The notes below the pieces were generated by a model, which was not told the DNA's origin, did no database searches, and was given only the letters and a program-made list of their open reading frames with translations. Below are positions 6,277 through 17,422 of a DNA stretch of 26,469 nt, one piece after another. The position numbers and the translations under genes were made by a program. Where the stretch lies: the IMG/VR virus record IMGVR_UViG_3300036770_002951, positions 1-26,469 of that record, one strand, 5' to 3'. Origin of the DNA: a virus. Position 1 is the stretch's first letter. Each line of letters begins with the position of its first letter.

Positions 6277-6924
6277 ATGACTTATAAAGATGTGTGGCAT
6301 GTCCCACCGATACTTCCTGACAAATTGCAAAAGAGGATTACGACTGCCGTGGCCCCGATGAAGAAGCAAAAGAAGAAGTTGACGCAGAGGGAATGGACTT
6401 TTGTGCAAGAGTTGGTCGCGGGTGATGGCACGGTGACCATGAAGGAATGCGCGTTGCGCGCGGGATACTCGCCGCAATCGGCGAAGGCCATGGCATGGCG
6501 CCTGACTAATCCTGACTTAAATCCGCATGTCGTGGCCGCGATTCAAGAGTACAGGGCCGAATTGGCCGCGAAGTATGGAACGACTTTCGAGCGGCATATG
6601 CGGGACTTGCAGACGATACGCGACGCGGCCTTGTCTGCCGGGGCATATGGTGCGGCGGTGCAGGCCGAATATCGACGAGGGCAGGCCCTGGGCACGATCT
6701 ACATTGAACGCAAAGAGATCCGGCACGGGACTATTGACCAGATGAGCAAGGAGGAGGTCGAGAAGAAACTCGAGGAGATCAAGAGGCTATATGGTGGGCC
6801 GCCCCCGCAGGCCATTCTTGAGGTCGAGGCAAAAGACATTACGCCTGAGGTCGAGCCCGATTTTGAGATCCCGCAGGATGTGGTTAATACACGGGAAGGG
6901 GGAGACGATGAGCCAAGCACCTGA
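6277..6924 (+). CDS. terS: Terminase small subunit
   Basis: Residues 35-93 match the Terminase_2 family: LTQREWTFVQELV, a glycine-containing turn, a helix with ECALRAGYSPQSAKAMAWRL, then NPDLNPHVVAAIQEY. The ALRAGYS segment is the family's best mark and lies in the DNA-binding helix-turn-helix. Later residues 150-170 form a charged coiled coil (KEEVEKKLEEIKRLYGG), probably used for ring assembly, and the tail is acidic. The protein recognises the packaging site on phage DNA and recruits the large subunit. Here the large subunit lies 4.3 kb downstream rather than next door. Start follows AAGGAGAAGAATCA. Confidence 0.88.
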   Translation: MTYKDVWHVPPILPDKLQKRITTAVAPMKKQKKKLTQREWTFVQELVAGDGTVTMKECALRAGYSPQSAKAMAWRLTNPDLNPHVVAAIQEYRAELAAKYGTTFERHMRDLQTIRDAALSAGAYGAAVQAEYRRGQALGTIYIERKEIRHGTIDQMSKEEVEKKLEEIKRLYGGPPPQAILEVEAKDITPEVEPDFEIPQDVVNTREGGDDEPST

Positions 6925-7336
6925 GGCCGCCCTGTATGCAAGGCTTAAGGAGAACCTCCCGAAGGCCTACATAACCCGCCTGGAGTCGCGGGTAGGGTTA
7001 GGTATTCCCGATTGCCTGATCGCCTTGGGGCCGCTTCCAGGCGTGTTCGTGATGGTCGAGCTTAAAGTCGTGAAGCGGGGCAAGAAGATCAACCTCTCGC
7101 CGCATCAGATCGCCTTCCATTTGAAGCATTCGACCTTGAAGTGTCCGACCTTTGTTTTGGTGCAATATCACCCGCCGGGGACTACCTCTTCGCGCAATGC
7201 GGAGATTCTTTTGTACTCGGGCGCGCAGGTCGAATCCTTGGCAATGGTGGGCGTCGAGACGCCGCCGCTCGACCGTTGGAACCTCGCGGCCATGGAATGG
7301 AACATGCTCCGCTTCCGAATCCTTGAGGCAATTTGA
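6908..7336 (+). CDS. PD-(D/E)XK nuclease (VRR-NUC/Holliday-junction type)
   Basis: I use the ATG at 6908, behind AAGGGGGAGACG and overlapping the end of the terminase small subunit. The 142-residue protein has the nuclease core: GIPD with aspartate 35, then VELK with E51 and K53, and LSPHQIAF with Q67 downstream, a spacing typical of phage PD-(D/E)XK enzymes related to VRR-NUC. Such enzymes cut branched or replicating DNA. Its position between the terminase subunits suggests a role in resolving concatemers before packaging, though this is inference. The C-terminal 45 residues are not part of the core. Confidence 0.8.
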   Translation: MSQAPEAALYARLKENLPKAYITRLESRVGLGIPDCLIALGPLPGVFVMVELKVVKRGKKINLSPHQIAFHLKHSTLKCPTFVLVQYHPPGTTSSRNAEILLYSGAQVESLAMVGVETPPLDRWNLAAMEWNMLRFRILEAI

Positions 7337-9348: not shown

Positions 9349-10434
9349 ATGACTACCTTAATGCAAGCATCCCACCAATGGGCTACACGCCCCGCCGAGG
9401 AGCGGTTTCTTTCTTTGCCCGAAATGTTGGCCGCCGCCGAGGCCGAGCGCGCTATCAGTCGTGCCGCTGTCGTTTCGTCGCGCCGTCTCCGCGCCGTACC
9501 GACCGAAGATAATGCGGGGATTATGATCGAGGGGCCGAATGGTCACGCCTACGCGCCGACTCATTGGGCATTCGGTCAAGCGGCGAACCTTACCGGGGCC
9601 CCGGCGTCATACTTGCGCGGCCTCCCCGCGCCGCTCGCCGCCGATTGTCTGAATTTTGGTTTTCAAGTCGAGCGCGACGCGCAGGAAATCGGAGTTTTAC
9701 TTTCCCGCAATGGTTCGGACCAAATTAAGGCCATGACCGGCCCCCGTTATGGCCGCATCTGGAATTCTGAGGTTATCCGCGCGCTTATTGATCGATTCGG
9801 CGACGGCCGGTCGGGGGATTTTCGGGTGCCGGGGGAGTATGGCCGCGCGGTCGAAATCACGCGCGAGAATACGACACTTTTCGCGGGTGACCGTGACATG
9901 TTCGTGTTTTTGGCCGACGAAAATAATCGCGTCGAAATCCCGAATCGTCGTGAGGGCCAGACCGGCACACTCGCGCGCGGGTTTTTTGTGACGAATTCGC
10001 AAGTCGGCGCGGGGGCCTTGCGGGTTAAGACTTTTCTTTTTGATTATGTCTGCGCGAATCGGATCGTGTGGGGCGCGCACGAATTAGAGGAAATCAGCAT
10101 CAGGCATACGGCGGCGGCCCCGGATAGGTTTATCGAAGAGGTAACCCCCGCCCTCTTGGCCTATTCTCAGTCGAGCGCGGCGAACCTCAACAATGTTTTG
10201 AAGGGCGCGCGCGAATCGAAAATCGATAAGGTTGACGCGTTTCTTGCGAATCGATTCGGCCCCCGCGTAGCGCAACGAATCAATGCCGCGCATGTCGAGG
10301 AGGAGGGCCGCCCGATCGAGACCCTTTGGGATGCGGTCACGGGCGCGACCGCCTATGCGAAATCGATCCCTTGGACCGCCGACCGCGTCGAATTAGAGAC
10401 CGAGGCCGGGAAAATCCTCGACCTAGTCGACTAG
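9349..10434 (+). CDS. DUF932 family protein
   Basis: I start at the ATG at 9349, behind AGAAAGGTTTTAATC; an in-frame start at 9301 lies in the leader hairpin. The 361-residue protein matches DUF932 (TIGR03299 type): HWAFGQAANLTGAPASYLRGLP near residues 71-92 (quoted in part), ADCLNFGF, RAMTGPRYGRIWNS-like residues, FLFDYVCANRIVWGA in the middle, and helical AHVEEEGRPIETLWDAVTG near the end. The family is common on plasmids and phages, and its biochemical function is not known. A terminator follows directly, then the iteron-like array, which fits a role near a replication locus. Confidence 0.85.
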   Translation: MTTLMQASHQWATRPAEERFLSLPEMLAAAEAERAISRAAVVSSRRLRAVPTEDNAGIMIEGPNGHAYAPTHWAFGQAANLTGAPASYLRGLPAPLAADCLNFGFQVERDAQEIGVLLSRNGSDQIKAMTGPRYGRIWNSEVIRALIDRFGDGRSGDFRVPGEYGRAVEITRENTTLFAGDRDMFVFLADENNRVEIPNRREGQTGTLARGFFVTNSQVGAGALRVKTFLFDYVCANRIVWGAHELEEISIRHTAAAPDRFIEEVTPALLAYSQSSAANLNNVLKGARESKIDKVDAFLANRFGPRVAQRINAAHVEEEGRPIETLWDAVTGATAYAKSIPWTADRVELETEAGKILDLVD

Positions 10435-10455
10435 GCCGCCCCGGCCCCGTTATAG

Positions 10456-10480
10456 CCCCGCCCCGCGCGGGGTTTTTTTT
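10456..10480 (+). terminator. Rho-independent terminator after DUF932
   Basis: CCCCGC (10456-10461) pairs with GCGGGG (10467-10472) around a five-base loop, and eight T residues follow (10473-10480). It ends the GC-rich gene block 22 bases after the DUF932 stop. Confidence 0.88.
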
Positions 10481-10492
10481 CGCCCTTGAAAA

Positions 10493-10607
10493 TTGATCTG
10501 TCCCTATTTATTCGGTTGATCTGTCCCTATTTATTCGGTTGATCTGTCCCTATTTATTCGGTTGATCTGTCCCTATTTATTCGGTTGATATGTCCCTATT
10601 TATCGAG
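10493..10607 (+). repeat. Tandem 23-bp iteron-like repeats, 4 perfect and 1 diverged
   Basis: Units start at 10493, 10516, 10539 and 10562, identical over 23 bases (beginning TTGATCTGTCCC and ending TATTCGG). A fifth at 10585 differs by GATATG for GATCTG and by its last bases. The copies are joined without spacers, which excludes a CRISPR array. The 23-bp period, about two helical turns, puts every copy on one DNA face, as for iterons bound by a replication initiator. Terminal repeats of a lost transposon are a weaker alternative. Confidence 0.9.
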
Positions 10608-10801
10608 CCGTGGTTTAACCCGCCCCCGCGTGCCCTCGTTTCTCGCCCTCTAGCCCCGCCCGTCGCGGGTTACATGCCCCGGTATTCACCCCCGCCGCCG
10701 TGGCCGCCTATGCCCCGCAAACTAGGCCCCTCGGCCCCCGGCCCGTTATCCTTTCCCCTCTCCACGGGTATCGTGCCCCCTCGACCGTGCCCCCTCGGTT
10801 C

Positions 10802-10879
10802 GTGGTTCGTGCCCCGTGGCCGCCCGCCCTCGGGCCGTGGTTCGTGGTCCGTGGTCCGTAGTTCGTGCCCCCGTGGCCG
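10802..10879 (+). repeat. GTGGTYC heptamer repeats
   Basis: GTGGTTC occurs at 10802-10808 and 10837-10843, then GTGGTCC at 10844-10850 and 10851-10857, and GTAGTTC at 10858-10864. Each string is followed by GTGCCCC and GTGGCCG, so a longer segment (10802-10822 and 10858-10879) is also directly repeated. No gene is visible here. Confidence 0.7.
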
Positions 10880-11062
10880 TCGACCCCGGCCCCTCGACCG
10901 CGTCGCATGGCCCCCGGCCCCCGCCCCGGGGGTCGAGTCCCGGCACCGATTCCCGCCGCGCGTGGGCCGTGGGCCGCGTCGCGCGCCGCGCGAGCCGCGC
11001 GCCAAAGGCGCAAAGGCTTTAGCCCGATTTCAGACAAATATTTACCGGTCAAAAGTGAATTG

Positions 11063-11078
11063 GTTAGTGGTCGCTAAC
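11063..11078. promoter_or_regulatory. 16-bp palindrome adjoining parS
   Basis: GTTAGTGGTCGCTAAC has perfect GTTAG/CTAAC arms and nearly symmetrical centre. It ends one base before the parS palindrome at 11080. Two adjacent dyads of equal length suggest paired protein-binding sites. Confidence 0.5.
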
Positions 11079-11079
11079 A

Positions 11080-11095
11080 TGTTTCACGTGAAACA
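11080..11095. promoter_or_regulatory. parS: parS centromere site (exact consensus)
   Basis: TGTTTCACGTGAAACA is a perfect 16-bp palindrome and is identical to the consensus chromosomal parS bound by ParB in most bacteria. ParB loads on this site and spreads as a clamp, and with ParA it moves the replicon to the cell poles. No parA or parB gene is visible in the window, so the phage would have to use the host's ParB or one encoded elsewhere in the genome. A chance match of a 16-bp word in a genome this size is unlikely, but CACGTG-type palindromes also serve as operators for other proteins. Confidence 0.85.
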
Positions 11096-11103
11096 CCCCC
11101 CGT

Positions 11104-11123
11104 CACTTTGCAAAATCAAAGTG
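11104..11123 (+). other. Hairpin before the terminase large subunit
   Basis: CACTTTG (11104-11110) pairs with CAAAGTG (11117-11123) around CAAAAT. The next run of T starts only eight bases later (11131-11135), so terminator activity is doubtful. It separates parS from the terminase gene. Confidence 0.5.
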
Positions 11124-11155
11124 GCCGGTATTTTTATAAAAATTTGAAACTAAAA

Positions 11156-11163
11156 AAGTTCTC
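11156..11163 (+). promoter_or_regulatory. Sixth AAGTTCTC word, before terL
   Basis: This copy, preceded by CTAAAA, ends 15 bases before the terminase start. It is the only copy I noticed outside the cluster at 5610-5928, which suggests joint control of the two regions. Confidence 0.5.
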
Positions 11164-11178
11164 TGTTACCTTGACCCC

Positions 11179-12660
11179 ATGTCAGATCAAACCAACCCCT
11201 CCGCCACGCCCCCAGACGTAGAAGCAGAGCGTCTCCGCCTTGAACTTCGATTAGCCCAGATTGCTGCCAGGGAGAAGGCCACTGACAACTTCTTGGCGTT
11301 CTGTCGGTACGTTTGGCCCGAGATGATTGTTGGGGCACACCATGTGAAGATCGCTGCCGCGTTGGACCGTGTTGTGTCGGGCGAGTGCAAGCGTCTGATG
11401 ATCGCGATGCCGCCCCGGCATGGAAAGTCGCAGATGGGAAGCTACTTGTTTCCTGCGTATCTGATGGGCAAGAAGCCTCAATCCAAGCTCATTGTTGGGT
11501 CGCACACGGCAGAACTGGCGCAGCGTTTTGGCCGGATGATCCGGAATCTTGTCGCGGAAGACTCGTACAAGGAGTTGTTCCCCGAGTTCCAGTTATCGGC
11601 GGACTCGAAGGCTGCTGGACGGTGGGACACGAACCGTGGTGGGGAGGCCTTTTTCATTGGTAAGGGTGGTGCGATGACGGGCCGTGGTGGTGACATTGTG
11701 ATTCTTGATGACATCTTGGATGAGCAGGATGCGATGTCGATGACGGCGATGGAGAACACCTGGAACTGGTACACGTCTGGGCCGCGTCAGCGTTTGCAGC
11801 CGAACGGGTCGATTATTGTGATCAACACCCGTTGGAAGACGGACGATCTGTCTGGGCGGTTGCTCAAGCAGCAGGGAGCGCTGAAGGCGGACAAGTGGGA
11901 GGTATTGGAGTTCCCGGCCATTCTGCCAAGCAACAAGCCTCTTTGGCCTGAGTATTGGAAGTTGGAGGAGTTAGAGGCTGTCAAGATGAGTATTGGGTTG
12001 TCGAAGTGGAATGCTCAGTGGCAGCAGCAGCCGACCAATGACGAGGGGGCGATACTGAAGCGGCAGTGGTGGAAGGTTTGGCCGCACATGGAGCCGCCTG
12101 ATGTGGAGTACATCATTCAGTCGTATGACACGGCGTACAGCAAGAAGGAGACTTCTGACTATTCGGCGATTACGACGTGGGGTGTGTTTTATCCGGATGC
12201 GGATTCGGGGCCGAACATTATCCTTTTGAATGTTCTCAAGGGCCGGTGGGACTTTCCGGAGTTAAAGCGTGTGGCGAAGGATGAGTATGTGTATTGGAAG
12301 CCGGACAATGTTTTGATTGAGGCGAAGGCGACTGGAATTACGTTGCAACAGGAGTTGCGGCGGATGGGGATTCCGGTGACAATGTACTCGCCTGGAGGGC
12401 GGCGCGCGGGCCAGGACAAGATATCCAGGGCGAACTCGATTGCGCCACTTTTGGAGTCTGGGATGGTGTGGGTGCCGGAGACTGAGTGGGCGGATGAGTT
12501 GGTTGAGGAGTGTGCGGCGTTTCCCAATGGGGATAACGATGACTTAGTGGACTCGACGACGCAGGCGTTGATGCGGTTTCGGGCGGGGAATTTTATATCG
12601 TTGGGCTCGGATGAAGTGGATGAGGCCAAGGATGAGGCGAAGGTACTGGAGTACTACTGA
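11179..12660 (+). CDS. terL: Terminase large subunit
   Basis: The 493-residue protein has both terminase domains. The ATPase half contains a Walker A-like PPRHGKS at residues 78-84 and Walker B VILDD near 174-178, with a TRWKTDDLSGRL coupling segment after it. The nuclease half has SYDTA near residue 317, IEAKATG near 381 and DDLVDSTTQAL near 455, giving the three acidic residues of the RNase H-like cutter. It pumps phage DNA into the procapsid and cuts it. The length is normal. Unusually, no Shine-Dalgarno site precedes the ATG at 11179. Its stop overlaps the next start at 12660. Confidence 0.95.
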   Translation: MSDQTNPSATPPDVEAERLRLELRLAQIAAREKATDNFLAFCRYVWPEMIVGAHHVKIAAALDRVVSGECKRLMIAMPPRHGKSQMGSYLFPAYLMGKKPQSKLIVGSHTAELAQRFGRMIRNLVAEDSYKELFPEFQLSADSKAAGRWDTNRGGEAFFIGKGGAMTGRGGDIVILDDILDEQDAMSMTAMENTWNWYTSGPRQRLQPNGSIIVINTRWKTDDLSGRLLKQQGALKADKWEVLEFPAILPSNKPLWPEYWKLEELEAVKMSIGLSKWNAQWQQQPTNDEGAILKRQWWKVWPHMEPPDVEYIIQSYDTAYSKKETSDYSAITTWGVFYPDADSGPNIILLNVLKGRWDFPELKRVAKDEYVYWKPDNVLIEAKATGITLQQELRRMGIPVTMYSPGGRRAGQDKISRANSIAPLLESGMVWVPETEWADELVEECAAFPNGDNDDLVDSTTQALMRFRAGNFISLGSDEVDEAKDEAKVLEYY

Positions 12661-15026
12661 TGATGGATCTCCTGGGTGCTGGTAATCCGTATGTGAAGCG
12701 GTACGCTGATGGTGGTGAGGTACAGCCACCACCTCCGCCTGTTGTTAATGTAGGACTTAATTGGTTTAAAGATCCTGGTATGTGGAATCAGCCTGACTTT
12801 CAGAAGGGTGTTCAGGCGTATGGGAGTGTTGCGGCGTTCAAGTCAGCGCTTGAAAAGTACAACCGGGATCATGCTCAGTATGTAATTGATTTCCATGAGA
12901 ATGAATTTAACCGAGGCAGAAGCACTCCGGGTCGTTTGGCTGGGGCGTATGAGATGGCGGCTACGAGCCCTTGGTTCTCGGAGCAAGAAAGGGAGACCTT
13001 TTTAGCCAAGGCTGTGCCATTAAATGAGCAGATGAGGCAGATAACGGAAGCGAACAGGGCTATACGTGCTGCTGACAGGATTATAGATGAGAGGCTTACT
13101 GCTTTTAGTCCTGTGAAGAAGCAGTTACTGGATCAAGCGCAACAGCAGAACGTAGAGCAGAAAAAGTACATAAACGAGCAGTTTGAAAAGCAGCGTAAGG
13201 CTTTGGTGGAGCAGTATTTGAATCCGAATGCCATGGATCAAAGAAGTTATGACAGGTATCGGAAAGAGCTTACCAATAAAACAAAGGCAGACATAGAGGC
13301 AGTACAGCAGGGGTTGAAGCAGAACAGGGATTATTTAAGGTCGGTTCAGGAGTTAATGCGTTCTCAGGATGTGGATTTATCGAGCTTAGTGTTGCCGTAT
13401 TTGTTTACAAGGCCAGAGGAAGTTGCTCCTAGTGAGCCTCCTCCTGCTGTGGTTCAACCTGTTACTCCACCGGAGCAAACAACTCCTGTTCGCCCACCGA
13501 TCCCTGTTCCTGTTATTCCGCAGACGCCGACAAGCTCTACGGTTCCATCGCCGTCTATAACGCCGTCAATTCCTTCGGGCAATTTAACACCAATGCCGTT
13601 GCCTATTGGTGGAATTCCGCAGCCGAGCTTTGGGTATCAGCCTCCTTCGTATGAAAGTATCTTTCCTGGCTATCAGAGCCCCACGGCCCAAGCAGCACCG
13701 ACCATGCAACAACAGCAACAGCAGCAGATTCAGTATGGTCCTATTGGTCAGGCAGCAACTTCCTCTTCAGATCTTTTGAAGAATCTGTTGGCATCGACTC
13801 AACAATCGATGCCGTTTGATTTCACGGCCAACAATCCGTACTTGATGAAGCAAGAGCCGGTGCAGTTCTTTGCTGATGGGGGTGAGGTACAGCCTCCTGC
13901 TGCCCCGGTTGTTAATGTGGACTTAAGTTGGTTCAACAACCCTAGTTTGCAGAATGAGCCTGCTTTTCAGCAGGGTGTGCAGGCATATGGAAGTGTTGCG
14001 GCGTTTAAGAATGCGTTGGAGAGTTATCGTCGAGACTATGACCGGTATCAAGCGGCTTTTGCGGAGAAGGAGTTTCGTGAGGGCAGGAGCGTTCCGGGGA
14101 CGTTAGCCTCGACCTATGAGCAGCTTTCTAAGTCGCCTTTCTTGTCTGCTGGAGAGCGCAGTAATTATGCTGCTCAGGTTCCTACTCTGCTTGCCCAACA
14201 GGAGGCTTTAGACAAGAGGAATCAAGAGGAGCGGGCAGCGTTTGATGTAGTGCTTGATCGGTTTAGGGCATACAACCCTGTTGAGACTCAGTTGAGTCAG
14301 CAGGCGTATGACATGCACAGTCAAGAGAAGAACTATATTCAGTCTAAGTATGCGACGGAAAAGCAAGGGATCAGCCAAATCGGGGATCGTGCTTTACGGG
14401 CAAAGATGCTTCAGGACTTAAATGCTCGGATGACTGCGGAAGAGGATGCAGCGGTTAGGGGATTGGAGCAGAACATAGCCTTCATTGCGGACACGCGTGA
14501 GCGGTTGCGTGGTGGTGATATTGATTTGTCTAAGATCACTTTGCCGCATTTGTTCACGGTCCCTGAGCCGGTGCCCGTGCCTGAACCTCAGCCTACTTTG
14601 GTTCAGCCAACGCCTGCCCCTGCGCCGACGCCCACGACGCCTGTGCCTTCTCCGATTCCTGTTCCGGGTATTCCGCAGACGCCGTCTACTTCTGTTCCTG
14701 CGCCGTCGATAACGACGCCGACGTTGACCACGCCATCGGTTCCGGTGAGCAATTTAACTCCCAGGCCTCTGCCTGTTGGTGGGATTCCGCAGCCTACTTT
14801 TGGCTCTTTGAGTGTTCTGCCGCAGTATCAGAGCCCAACGACTCAGGCCATGCAGCCCACGAATCAGCAGCAACAACCTCAGCAACAGATCCAGTATGGT
14901 CCTATCGGCCAGGGGGCCGTGGGCCAAGCATCTTTACTCAGTACGCTCTTGTCCCAGCAGCAGGATCCGACTAAGGTATCGTTGTTGGGTTTTGACAATC
15001 CTTATTTGATGAAGCCATTTGGATGA
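12660..15026 (+). CDS. Tandemly duplicated, proline/glutamine-rich virion-type protein
   Basis: The 788-residue product is two similar halves. The first runs from about residue 9 and the second from about 398, an offset of 389 residues. Each has ADGGEVQPP, then VVNV-L-WF, QGVQAYGSVAAFK, a charged helical middle, a proline-rich stretch, and a glutamine-rich IQYGPIGQ end followed by NPYLMK. The glutamine runs and proline hinges suggest an extended fibre-like or internal structural protein. I do not recognise the family. The end of each half repeats the start-type NPY motif, so the gene could expand or shrink by recombination. Start overlaps the terminase stop. Confidence 0.78.
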   Translation: MMDLLGAGNPYVKRYADGGEVQPPPPPVVNVGLNWFKDPGMWNQPDFQKGVQAYGSVAAFKSALEKYNRDHAQYVIDFHENEFNRGRSTPGRLAGAYEMAATSPWFSEQERETFLAKAVPLNEQMRQITEANRAIRAADRIIDERLTAFSPVKKQLLDQAQQQNVEQKKYINEQFEKQRKALVEQYLNPNAMDQRSYDRYRKELTNKTKADIEAVQQGLKQNRDYLRSVQELMRSQDVDLSSLVLPYLFTRPEEVAPSEPPPAVVQPVTPPEQTTPVRPPIPVPVIPQTPTSSTVPSPSITPSIPSGNLTPMPLPIGGIPQPSFGYQPPSYESIFPGYQSPTAQAAPTMQQQQQQQIQYGPIGQAATSSSDLLKNLLASTQQSMPFDFTANNPYLMKQEPVQFFADGGEVQPPAAPVVNVDLSWFNNPSLQNEPAFQQGVQAYGSVAAFKNALESYRRDYDRYQAAFAEKEFREGRSVPGTLASTYEQLSKSPFLSAGERSNYAAQVPTLLAQQEALDKRNQEERAAFDVVLDRFRAYNPVETQLSQQAYDMHSQEKNYIQSKYATEKQGISQIGDRALRAKMLQDLNARMTAEEDAAVRGLEQNIAFIADTRERLRGGDIDLSKITLPHLFTVPEPVPVPEPQPTLVQPTPAPAPTPTTPVPSPIPVPGIPQTPSTSVPAPSITTPTLTTPSVPVSNLTPRPLPVGGIPQPTFGSLSVLPQYQSPTTQAMQPTNQQQQPQQQIQYGPIGQGAVGQASLLSTLLSQQQDPTKVSLLGFDNPYLMKPFG

Positions 15027-17422
15027 AGAAGAAGCTAACGACGACTGACTTCATTCGCAAGCGTCAGGCTGGCTCCCCGCCGGAGGCGGAGGTTCCCACG
15101 GACGACTACATCCAGCAAATGATGACTGGGACGCCGCCGTCGGACACGTCGACGAACACTGGTCTCTTGCCCCCTGAGTTGCGTCGTGCGATTGATGTGC
15201 CGTTGGATCTGGCGAACATGGCGGTTCGTGGGACGATAGGCGCGGTTGCCGGTCCGGCGTATGGCTTGTACAAGGGCATTACGAGTGAGAAGTTTGGTAC
15301 GCCTGAGGGTGTGCAAGAGGCGGGATCTGAGGCAGGGAAGATGATGCAGAAAATCACGGGAACGCCCAAGACGGAGACGGGGCGAGACGTGATGGAGTTC
15401 ATTGGCAAGCAGGCTGAGGCCTTGAAGCTTGCGCCTACGCCCCAGCTTTTGACTGCCCCGCTTCCTGGACCAGGGTCCGCAAATGCTCTACTTCGATCCT
15501 ATGAGTTAGCCGAGACGGCGCCTACTGGGTCGGTGAAGTTGCCGGGGAAAGAGGGCAAGCCTGTTGCCACACCGCAGATGGACGCGATGGGTTTGTACTC
15601 GCCCACGGAGCAGGTGGTGATGAACTTGCCGCAGGAGAAGGGCACGGCGCAGCAGATGCTGGCGCAGATTAGTAAGGCTCCGGGGTCCAGGGCTGCTGAA
15701 TTACGCGCCACTGGCCTTGAGGAGTATTTGAAGGGTAAGGGCAATGCGCCTGTGACGCGGCAAGAGATTCAAGACTTCTTGAAGAGCAATCCGGTGCAGA
15801 TAAATGAGGTGGTGTTGGGCAAGGGTATGGTCTTGTCTCCGGAGGCCAAACAGCGGATGGGTGAGGCTGAGAATCGGATGATTGAGATTGACAATCAGCT
15901 TGCGCCTTACTTTGAGAATTCGCAGAGGCAAGACATCGATCCTGTCAGTACTTTCTACAGACTCCGTGGTTCGTTAGGCAGGAAGGCTGCGGCTGGGGAT
16001 GCGGAGGCGATGGCCGAGATTGATGCGTTGAACTTGCCTCCGGACATTAAGCAGTTAGTGTTGGAGTTTGGTGAGCAGAAGAATGAGTATGGGAAGTACT
16101 CAAAGCAAGCGCGCAAGATGGTCAAGCCTCAGTTTGAGAAGTACAACATTCCTGGTGGCGAGAATGCGCGGGAGATTTATCTGACGTTGCCCGGTCCAAC
16201 AAAAGCTGGTGTTTTACCCCCTTCTGTGGACGCGCAAGGAAACGTAATTCGTTCTGCAAATGCACCAAGCCCTCTTTACATGGCTCCTCCTCTTCATCGT
16301 GTCAGCCCTGAGGCGGACACAAACCGTCTTGCCCATATCTTCTTAGACGACCGTATGGATGCAGAAGGTAAGAAGGTCTTGTTCGTGCAGGAATTACAGT
16401 CGGACTGGGGGCAGGAAGGGAAGAAGAAGGGTTTCCAAGTTCGTGGTAGTTCGTTGACGGAGGCACAAGACAAGCGGCTTACAGAGTTGACTTTGCGTGA
16501 TCCAGACAGTCTTACTCCAAAAGAAAATCGTGAGCTGATGGATCTGATGGCGCTTCTTCCGCTGTCTGAATCTGAACGTATTGCCAATGAGTCAAAAATT
16601 CCGCAAGCCCCCTTCGTCACCAGCACCGAGGACTGGCTCAACCTTGCACTCAAGCGCGTGATCAAGGAAGCGGTGGACACGGGCGCGGAGAATGTGGCCT
16701 TTATCAAAGGCGAACAGGCCGCGAAGAAGTATTCTCTAACTACGGTTTTAGATGGAATTGAAGTTTTCCCAACAAAACCCCAAAGTAACACCTCGCGACT
16801 TATTGAGTTAAAGCAAAAGGGGGGCGGAATAATTCCTATGTTTGTAAATGAGAAGGGTGTAGTAAACACCGTTGCTCCTCGGGTTTCCCAAGAATTTGTA
16901 GGCAAGCCCTTGTCTGAGATAATAGGCAAAGAACTGTCTGAAAAGGTTATGTCTGCAAAGCAAAAGCCCAGCGAGGGGGAATCAATTAGTTTTGATGTTG
17001 AGGACATTGAAGTAGGCGGCGAAGGCATGAAAGGTTTCTATGACAACATCCTGCCAAAGACTGCAGAAAAACTCTTGAAGAGACTGGGTGGCGGGAAGAT
17101 TGAGACAATAGATCTTGGCCGTACAAAAAGCAGGGAAACCTGGGTGCAGGGCAGAGAACACCCGTTTAGTGTTGAACAGGACATCAACGAGCCATTTGAA
17201 GGGCGCGTAACAGTAGTTAATAAAGAAACTGGCGAATCCAAGATGTTTAACACACGAGATGAAGCGGACGAGTATATGGCCGAAGCTCTCGGCCATAACG
17301 TGGACCAAATACACCTCGGCTTCAAAATCACCCCCGAGATGCGTGAGATGGTCAAGACGCAGGGTCTGCCAAAGTTCGCAGCAGGCGGCGAAGTGACACA
17401 ATTCATCAAGGCGCATGCCTAA
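15023..17422 (+). CDS. Large polyvalent-type phage protein
   Basis: The 799-residue protein overlaps the previous gene by four bases. A hydrophobic glycine-rich segment (AVRGTIGAVAGPAYGLYKGI) lies at about residues 67-86. Then come motifs I associate with polyvalent proteins: ELRATGLEEYLKGKGN at about 227-243, VQELQSDWGQEGKKKGF at about 453-469, NLALKRVIKEAVDTG and ENVAFIKGEQAAKKY at about 545-575, and a closing LPKFAAGGEVTQFIKAHA. Such proteins are often packed in the head and injected with the DNA. No active site can be shown here. The segment GFYDNILPKTAEKLLKRLG (about 671-689) is another conserved part. Confidence 0.72.
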   Translation: MKKKLTTTDFIRKRQAGSPPEAEVPTDDYIQQMMTGTPPSDTSTNTGLLPPELRRAIDVPLDLANMAVRGTIGAVAGPAYGLYKGITSEKFGTPEGVQEAGSEAGKMMQKITGTPKTETGRDVMEFIGKQAEALKLAPTPQLLTAPLPGPGSANALLRSYELAETAPTGSVKLPGKEGKPVATPQMDAMGLYSPTEQVVMNLPQEKGTAQQMLAQISKAPGSRAAELRATGLEEYLKGKGNAPVTRQEIQDFLKSNPVQINEVVLGKGMVLSPEAKQRMGEAENRMIEIDNQLAPYFENSQRQDIDPVSTFYRLRGSLGRKAAAGDAEAMAEIDALNLPPDIKQLVLEFGEQKNEYGKYSKQARKMVKPQFEKYNIPGGENAREIYLTLPGPTKAGVLPPSVDAQGNVIRSANAPSPLYMAPPLHRVSPEADTNRLAHIFLDDRMDAEGKKVLFVQELQSDWGQEGKKKGFQVRGSSLTEAQDKRLTELTLRDPDSLTPKENRELMDLMALLPLSESERIANESKIPQAPFVTSTEDWLNLALKRVIKEAVDTGAENVAFIKGEQAAKKYSLTTVLDGIEVFPTKPQSNTSRLIELKQKGGGIIPMFVNEKGVVNTVAPRVSQEFVGKPLSEIIGKELSEKVMSAKQKPSEGESISFDVEDIEVGGEGMKGFYDNILPKTAEKLLKRLGGGKIETIDLGRTKSRETWVQGREHPFSVEQDINEPFEGRVTVVNKETGESKMFNTRDEADEYMAEALGHNVDQIHLGFKITPEMREMVKTQGLPKFAAGGEVTQFIKAHA

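Follow-up and report, generated by a model that had tools for sequence, protein, structure and literature searches.

Phage phi29 is the one case that a literature search for host parS sites in phages returned, in the form of a citation: its chromosome is described as entrapped in spores by the ParB of Bacillus, Spo0J (PMC9437464, citing Meijer et al. 2005). As summarized there, the host ParB is implicated in moving the DNA of a phage that is regarded as virulent. In our own scan phi29, which served as positive control of the method, showed four copies of TGTTTCACGTGGAACA, one base off the consensus considered here, and it shares with the phages described below a host-type parS in a phage without ParB. 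Most of the four phi29 sites lie within annotated genes. It differs in that members of this clade usually carry a single site, perfect or near-perfect in consensus, and in that the phi29 account, as cited, concerns Bacillus during sporulation, whereas this clade comes from environmental metagenomes and has no link to sporulation.

Chromosomal ParABS systems use the identical 16-bp site, which is found here on a phage with no detectable parA or parB. Extrachromosomal prophages (mycobacteriophages, P1) carry parABS cassettes, by which phage DNA likewise becomes a cargo of partition, but there ParA and ParB come from the phage itself, and neither was found in the clade studied here. Phages of Alphaproteobacteria with host CtrA sites offer a parallel in that sites for a host regulator evolved repeatedly in unrelated phages, although CtrA is a transcription factor with sites grouped in promoters and in terminal repeats (PMC9437464).

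A consensus parS upstream of terL

The stretch of DNA analysed, hereafter the window, is a 26.5-kb fragment of a virus record (G000); contigs of its relatives reach 45–62 kb. Between a DUF932 gene ending at 10434 and the large terminase gene, 84 bp 5′ of the latter, lies a non-coding palindromic 16-mer that matches the chromosomal parS consensus perfectly (Table 1), the consensus used being TGTTNCACGTGAAACA (PMC7022226). It is the only site in the window at up to three mismatches, a threshold at which shuffled sequence gave a mean of 0.08 sites. The sole ORF running across it (10590–11147, GC-rich) is not conserved in relatives, and no ORF of at least 60 aa covers the site in L123, L125, L134 or L136. 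No sigma-70-type promoter was seen near it. Family searches, the positive controls of which gave matches, found neither ParB_N (PF02195) nor ParA (AAA_31, PF13614) in the window or its relatives (40 records, many of them fragments), and neither HTH_ParB (PF17762) nor a tyrosine integrase (PF00589) in 28 related records. A preliminary description of this DNA had reported a perfect, non-coding parS just before the terminase gene with no parA or parB visible, and had stated that ParB of most bacteria binds the site; the observation is borne out, and 17 of 17 ParBs bound parS when tested (PMC7383237).

Table 1. Coordinates of features around parS in the window
Feature	Position	Strand	Remark
parS TGTTTCACGTGAAACA	11080..11095		exact consensus match; kept in relatives
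Non-coding terL leader with parS; GC-rich, short-period repeats	10435..11178	+	
Terminator-like hairpin immediately 3′ of parS	11102..11125	+	closest relatives only
terL, large terminase	11179..12660	+	marker for relative search
Gene 3′ of terL, without family match	12660..15026	+	counterpart in second subgroup has parS within the coding sequence

The leader also holds an iteron-like 23-bp tandem repeat, TTGATCTGTCCCTATTTATTCGG (10493–10607, 4.8 copies), which is shared with L188 and absent from most relatives. Further along, 5′ of parS, a GC-rich tract (10620–11010) shows periodic repeats of 7, 14 and 21 bp (CCGTGGT and GGCCGTG types); a tract of this kind occupies the same place in L122–L136, 5′ of parS in most members with a site in the terL leader, with its periodicity kept and its sequence turned over. 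Elsewhere in the window, a gene for 799 aa (15023–17422) has a weak, partial match to a very large family annotated as endolysin (phrog_7348).

Conservation and placement in related phages

A TerL search of IMG/VR gathered 70 relatives. In 14 relatives parS is present at −82 to −99 of terL. The site is exact in L122, L123, L125 and L188, reads TGTTCCACGTGAAACA in L127, L129, L130, L135 and L185 and GGTTCCACGTGAAACA in L128, L133, L134 and L136, and takes the form TGTTCCACGTGAAACC in L204, a MAG contig. In alignment, the 60-bp flanks of the more distant members are down to 43–57% identity with the window, whereas differences within the site are confined to positions that parS tolerates. The preliminary description had left room for loss of the site from close relatives; these keep it, and at the same place, a counterexample being L124, in which the flanks are related and parS is absent. 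Assignment of a host by genome scan was abandoned, as relatives turned up in just two MAG bins, belonging to different phyla, which probably reflects binning.

Over 19 distinct contexts, the four positions left free by our search pattern (the other 12 of 16 being fixed) each admit two bases: position 1 is T or G, position 5 T or C, position 12 A or G and position 16 A or C. Little signal extends beyond the 16 bp. These preferences agree with published parS consensuses (PMC7022226).

In a second subgroup of 18 further relatives (L149–L151, L153–L158, L163, L164, L168, L169, L171, L172 and L180–L182) parS lies inside the gene 3′ of terL, about 0.4–0.6 kb past the terL stop and, where the start is present, 1.8–2.1 kb past it; L171 has two copies 90 bp apart. 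Here the site sits in a Pro/Ala-rich linker and is translated as V-S-R-E-T or V-P-R-E-T. The codons are invariably xxT-GTT-(T/C)CA-CGT-GAA-ACA in 13 distinct contexts, and the codon preceding GTT ends in T every time, though its residue may be D, P, T, N or A. The core varies solely at parS position 5, a protein-changing base, while the surrounding residues and codons have turned over between contexts. Across related loci, 34 of 37 forward-frame occurrences of V(S/P)RET use exactly these codons. Given codon frequencies from the same genes, free codon choice would yield this pattern with a joint probability of about 10^-22 over seven linker contexts, which are partly related by descent and so not fully independent. 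That selection maintains V(S/P)RET as a protein motif is ruled out by the fixed synonymous positions; fixed codons across unrelated linkers mean that selection acts on the DNA of the coding copy and not on the protein.

Further placements relative to terL are −267 (L191), −1816 (L159), −2287 (L205) and +3523 (L160). Placement forms clusters on the TerL tree yet has switched repeatedly, with 14 changes against a shuffled mean of 29.8, and most members of the clade have exactly one site. Relatives without any are also found: the 45–62 kb contigs of G007, G013, G015, G025, G030 and G031 contain no parS, and the site is therefore dispensable. In L131, L132 (4618–4990) and L183 an ORF with HNH-like histidines, as judged by inspection of the sequence, has taken the place of the parS-bearing leader, and L173 bears the same signature of replacement; none of the four retains parS, indicating that it can be lost.

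Possible roles of the site

Since the specificity of ParB is conserved across bacteria, host ParB very likely loads here in any host that has ParABS. Binding of parS by the host protein is likewise very likely, as we infer from sequence and that known specificity, and so is recruitment, given that selection acts on the DNA and that the conserved block equals the 16-bp ParB site with ParB's known degeneracy. Of the hijack of host ParB that the preliminary description proposed, recruitment is thus the part that very probably stands, with positioning, titration and silencing all still candidates for what it would achieve.

We consider it somewhat probable that the 16-mer acts in cis as a place where host ParB loads, serving to position or segregate phage DNA, and we hypothesize that this is the selected benefit. 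On entry or replication of the phage, host ParB-CTP clamps would load at parS and spread over adjacent phage DNA; host ParA, possibly together with SMC, would then treat the partition complex as an origin region of the chromosome. Phage genomes would in this way come to lie on the nucleoid or at origin positions, and daughter cells could inherit them if lysis is deferred or proceeds slowly. A single, mobile site in a leader or a linker fits a centromere acting at a distance better than the operator of one promoter. Against positioning or segregation, a virulent phage would gain little from inheritance as such.

Titration and silencing would come next in order. Replicated genomes bearing parS may draw ParB off the chromosome as a decoy and stall origin segregation and division; one site per genome multiplies on replication and ParB loads at parS repeatedly, so titration is an expected side effect, and some phages have several sites, such as the six in a 5.9-kb inovirus (see below). 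Selection for a decoy would favour arrays, yet most clade members keep exactly one site, and we regard this role as rather unlikely. It is unlikely, too, that spreading ParB keeps terL and the late genes silent pending a change in the state of the host, as a switch for lytic deferment. Such a switch could draw on known behaviour, in that plasmid ParB silences centromere-flanking genes over several kilobases (PMC7333895) and phages exploit the host regulators CtrA, Spo0A and LexA for control of the lytic-deferment type (PMC9437464), and parS does lie within the terL leader in one subgroup; but its placement varies (upstream of terL, within the next gene, or 1.8–2.3 kb upstream), and the vicinity of parS shows no sigma-70-type promoter.

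The remaining alternatives dispense with ParB. A phage protein of another family, whether a repressor, as the preliminary description had allowed, or a packaging or replication factor, might bind the palindrome, and the proximity of terL and the adjoining GC-rich repeats would suit it. We think this improbable: the conserved unit and its degeneracy equal those of parS, phages of many hosts share the 16-mer without being related, and the 28 related records yielded no phage DNA-binding protein with a ParB-type HTH. Chance, or the by-product of a conserved protein motif, does account for one match in a Pelagibacter phage (see below) but is hardly credible in this clade, where the site upstream of terL is non-coding and outlasts the turnover of its flanks, and where synonymous positions are fixed in the coding copy.

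Host-type parS in other phages

At least 120 IMG/VR contigs contain the 16-mer, compared with five that contain a control palindrome of equal composition. A 32-mer made of two sites matched 213 phage records and its control none; as this search requires about 17–18 matched bases, the phage counts set a minimum, for sites whose flanks are compatible. In a larger plasmid collection the same 32-mer gave 24 matches, several of them chromosome-sized. Among the IMG/VR matches listed, and under a crude gene model, 68 of 146 exact sites are non-coding, against 11% of the sequence. A ParB_N match was absent from 48 of the 50 parS-carrying IMG/VR contigs checked. A scan with a C-variant of the 32-mer was left out of the counts: its matches in Escherichia phages were numerous but partial, and apparently not to parS.

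Sixteen phage records were inspected with their annotation, and a ParB_N match above the cut-off is present in only one, Quhwah. Intergenic parS sites are found in Gordonia phages Woes and PatrickStar, Lactobacillus phage Lpa804, Roseobacter phage DSS3P8, Bacillus phage vB_BcoS-136 (four), Glutamicibacter phage Voltaire (two in tandem), Clavibacter phage CMP1, Enterococcus phage CUB-FM, Stenotrophomonas phage BUCT627 and Arthrobacter phage Racecar. The filamentous inovirus bajarodino virus 6 (L228, PQ006135) has six exact sites in 5.9 kb, five of them intergenic. ParB-less phages with a host-type parS are apparently far commoner than reported, and the word unusual, which the preliminary description had applied to such a hijack, is in one sense misplaced, since phages of many hosts carry the site without ParB and phi29 with Spo0J, as cited, is a published precedent.

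Borrowing of the host centromere may be a general strategy by which unrelated ParB-less phages, in diverse phyla, have their DNA positioned or segregated by host ParABS, with entrapment of phi29 in spores as a special case; we would give this somewhat less than even weight. If true, chromosome segregation would be a common target of phages besides transcription and replication. The intracellular location of phage DNA would become testable in cultured Gordonia, Lactobacillus and Bacillus phages by removing one host gene, and a parS in a ParB-less phage would predict, from sequence, a host with ParABS.

Arthrobacter phage Ranunculus (L232) has exact parS cores at three places, spaced by about 1.1 kb, in the genes for the portal and the capsid maturation protease, and Pseudomonas phages phiPsa300, 267 and 315 (MT670418, NC_073686, NC_073688) have a parS-like match in their direct terminal repeats. 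Pelagibacter phage HTVC027P carries the parS-like CGTTTCACGTGAAACA and was considered as a possible cultured member in which the site is conserved; it was rejected, and serves as a negative control, because the reading frame into which the 16-mer falls is conserved and encodes SPHQIAFHVKHP-type motifs. Its relatives read SPHQIAFHVKHP at that place, with the 16-mer varying to CATG, and the match, a protein-coding coincidence, is not counted as support. The window itself encodes, at 6791–7336, a protein with the motif SPHQIAFHLKH, the related DNA of pelagiphages resembling parS by coding coincidence.
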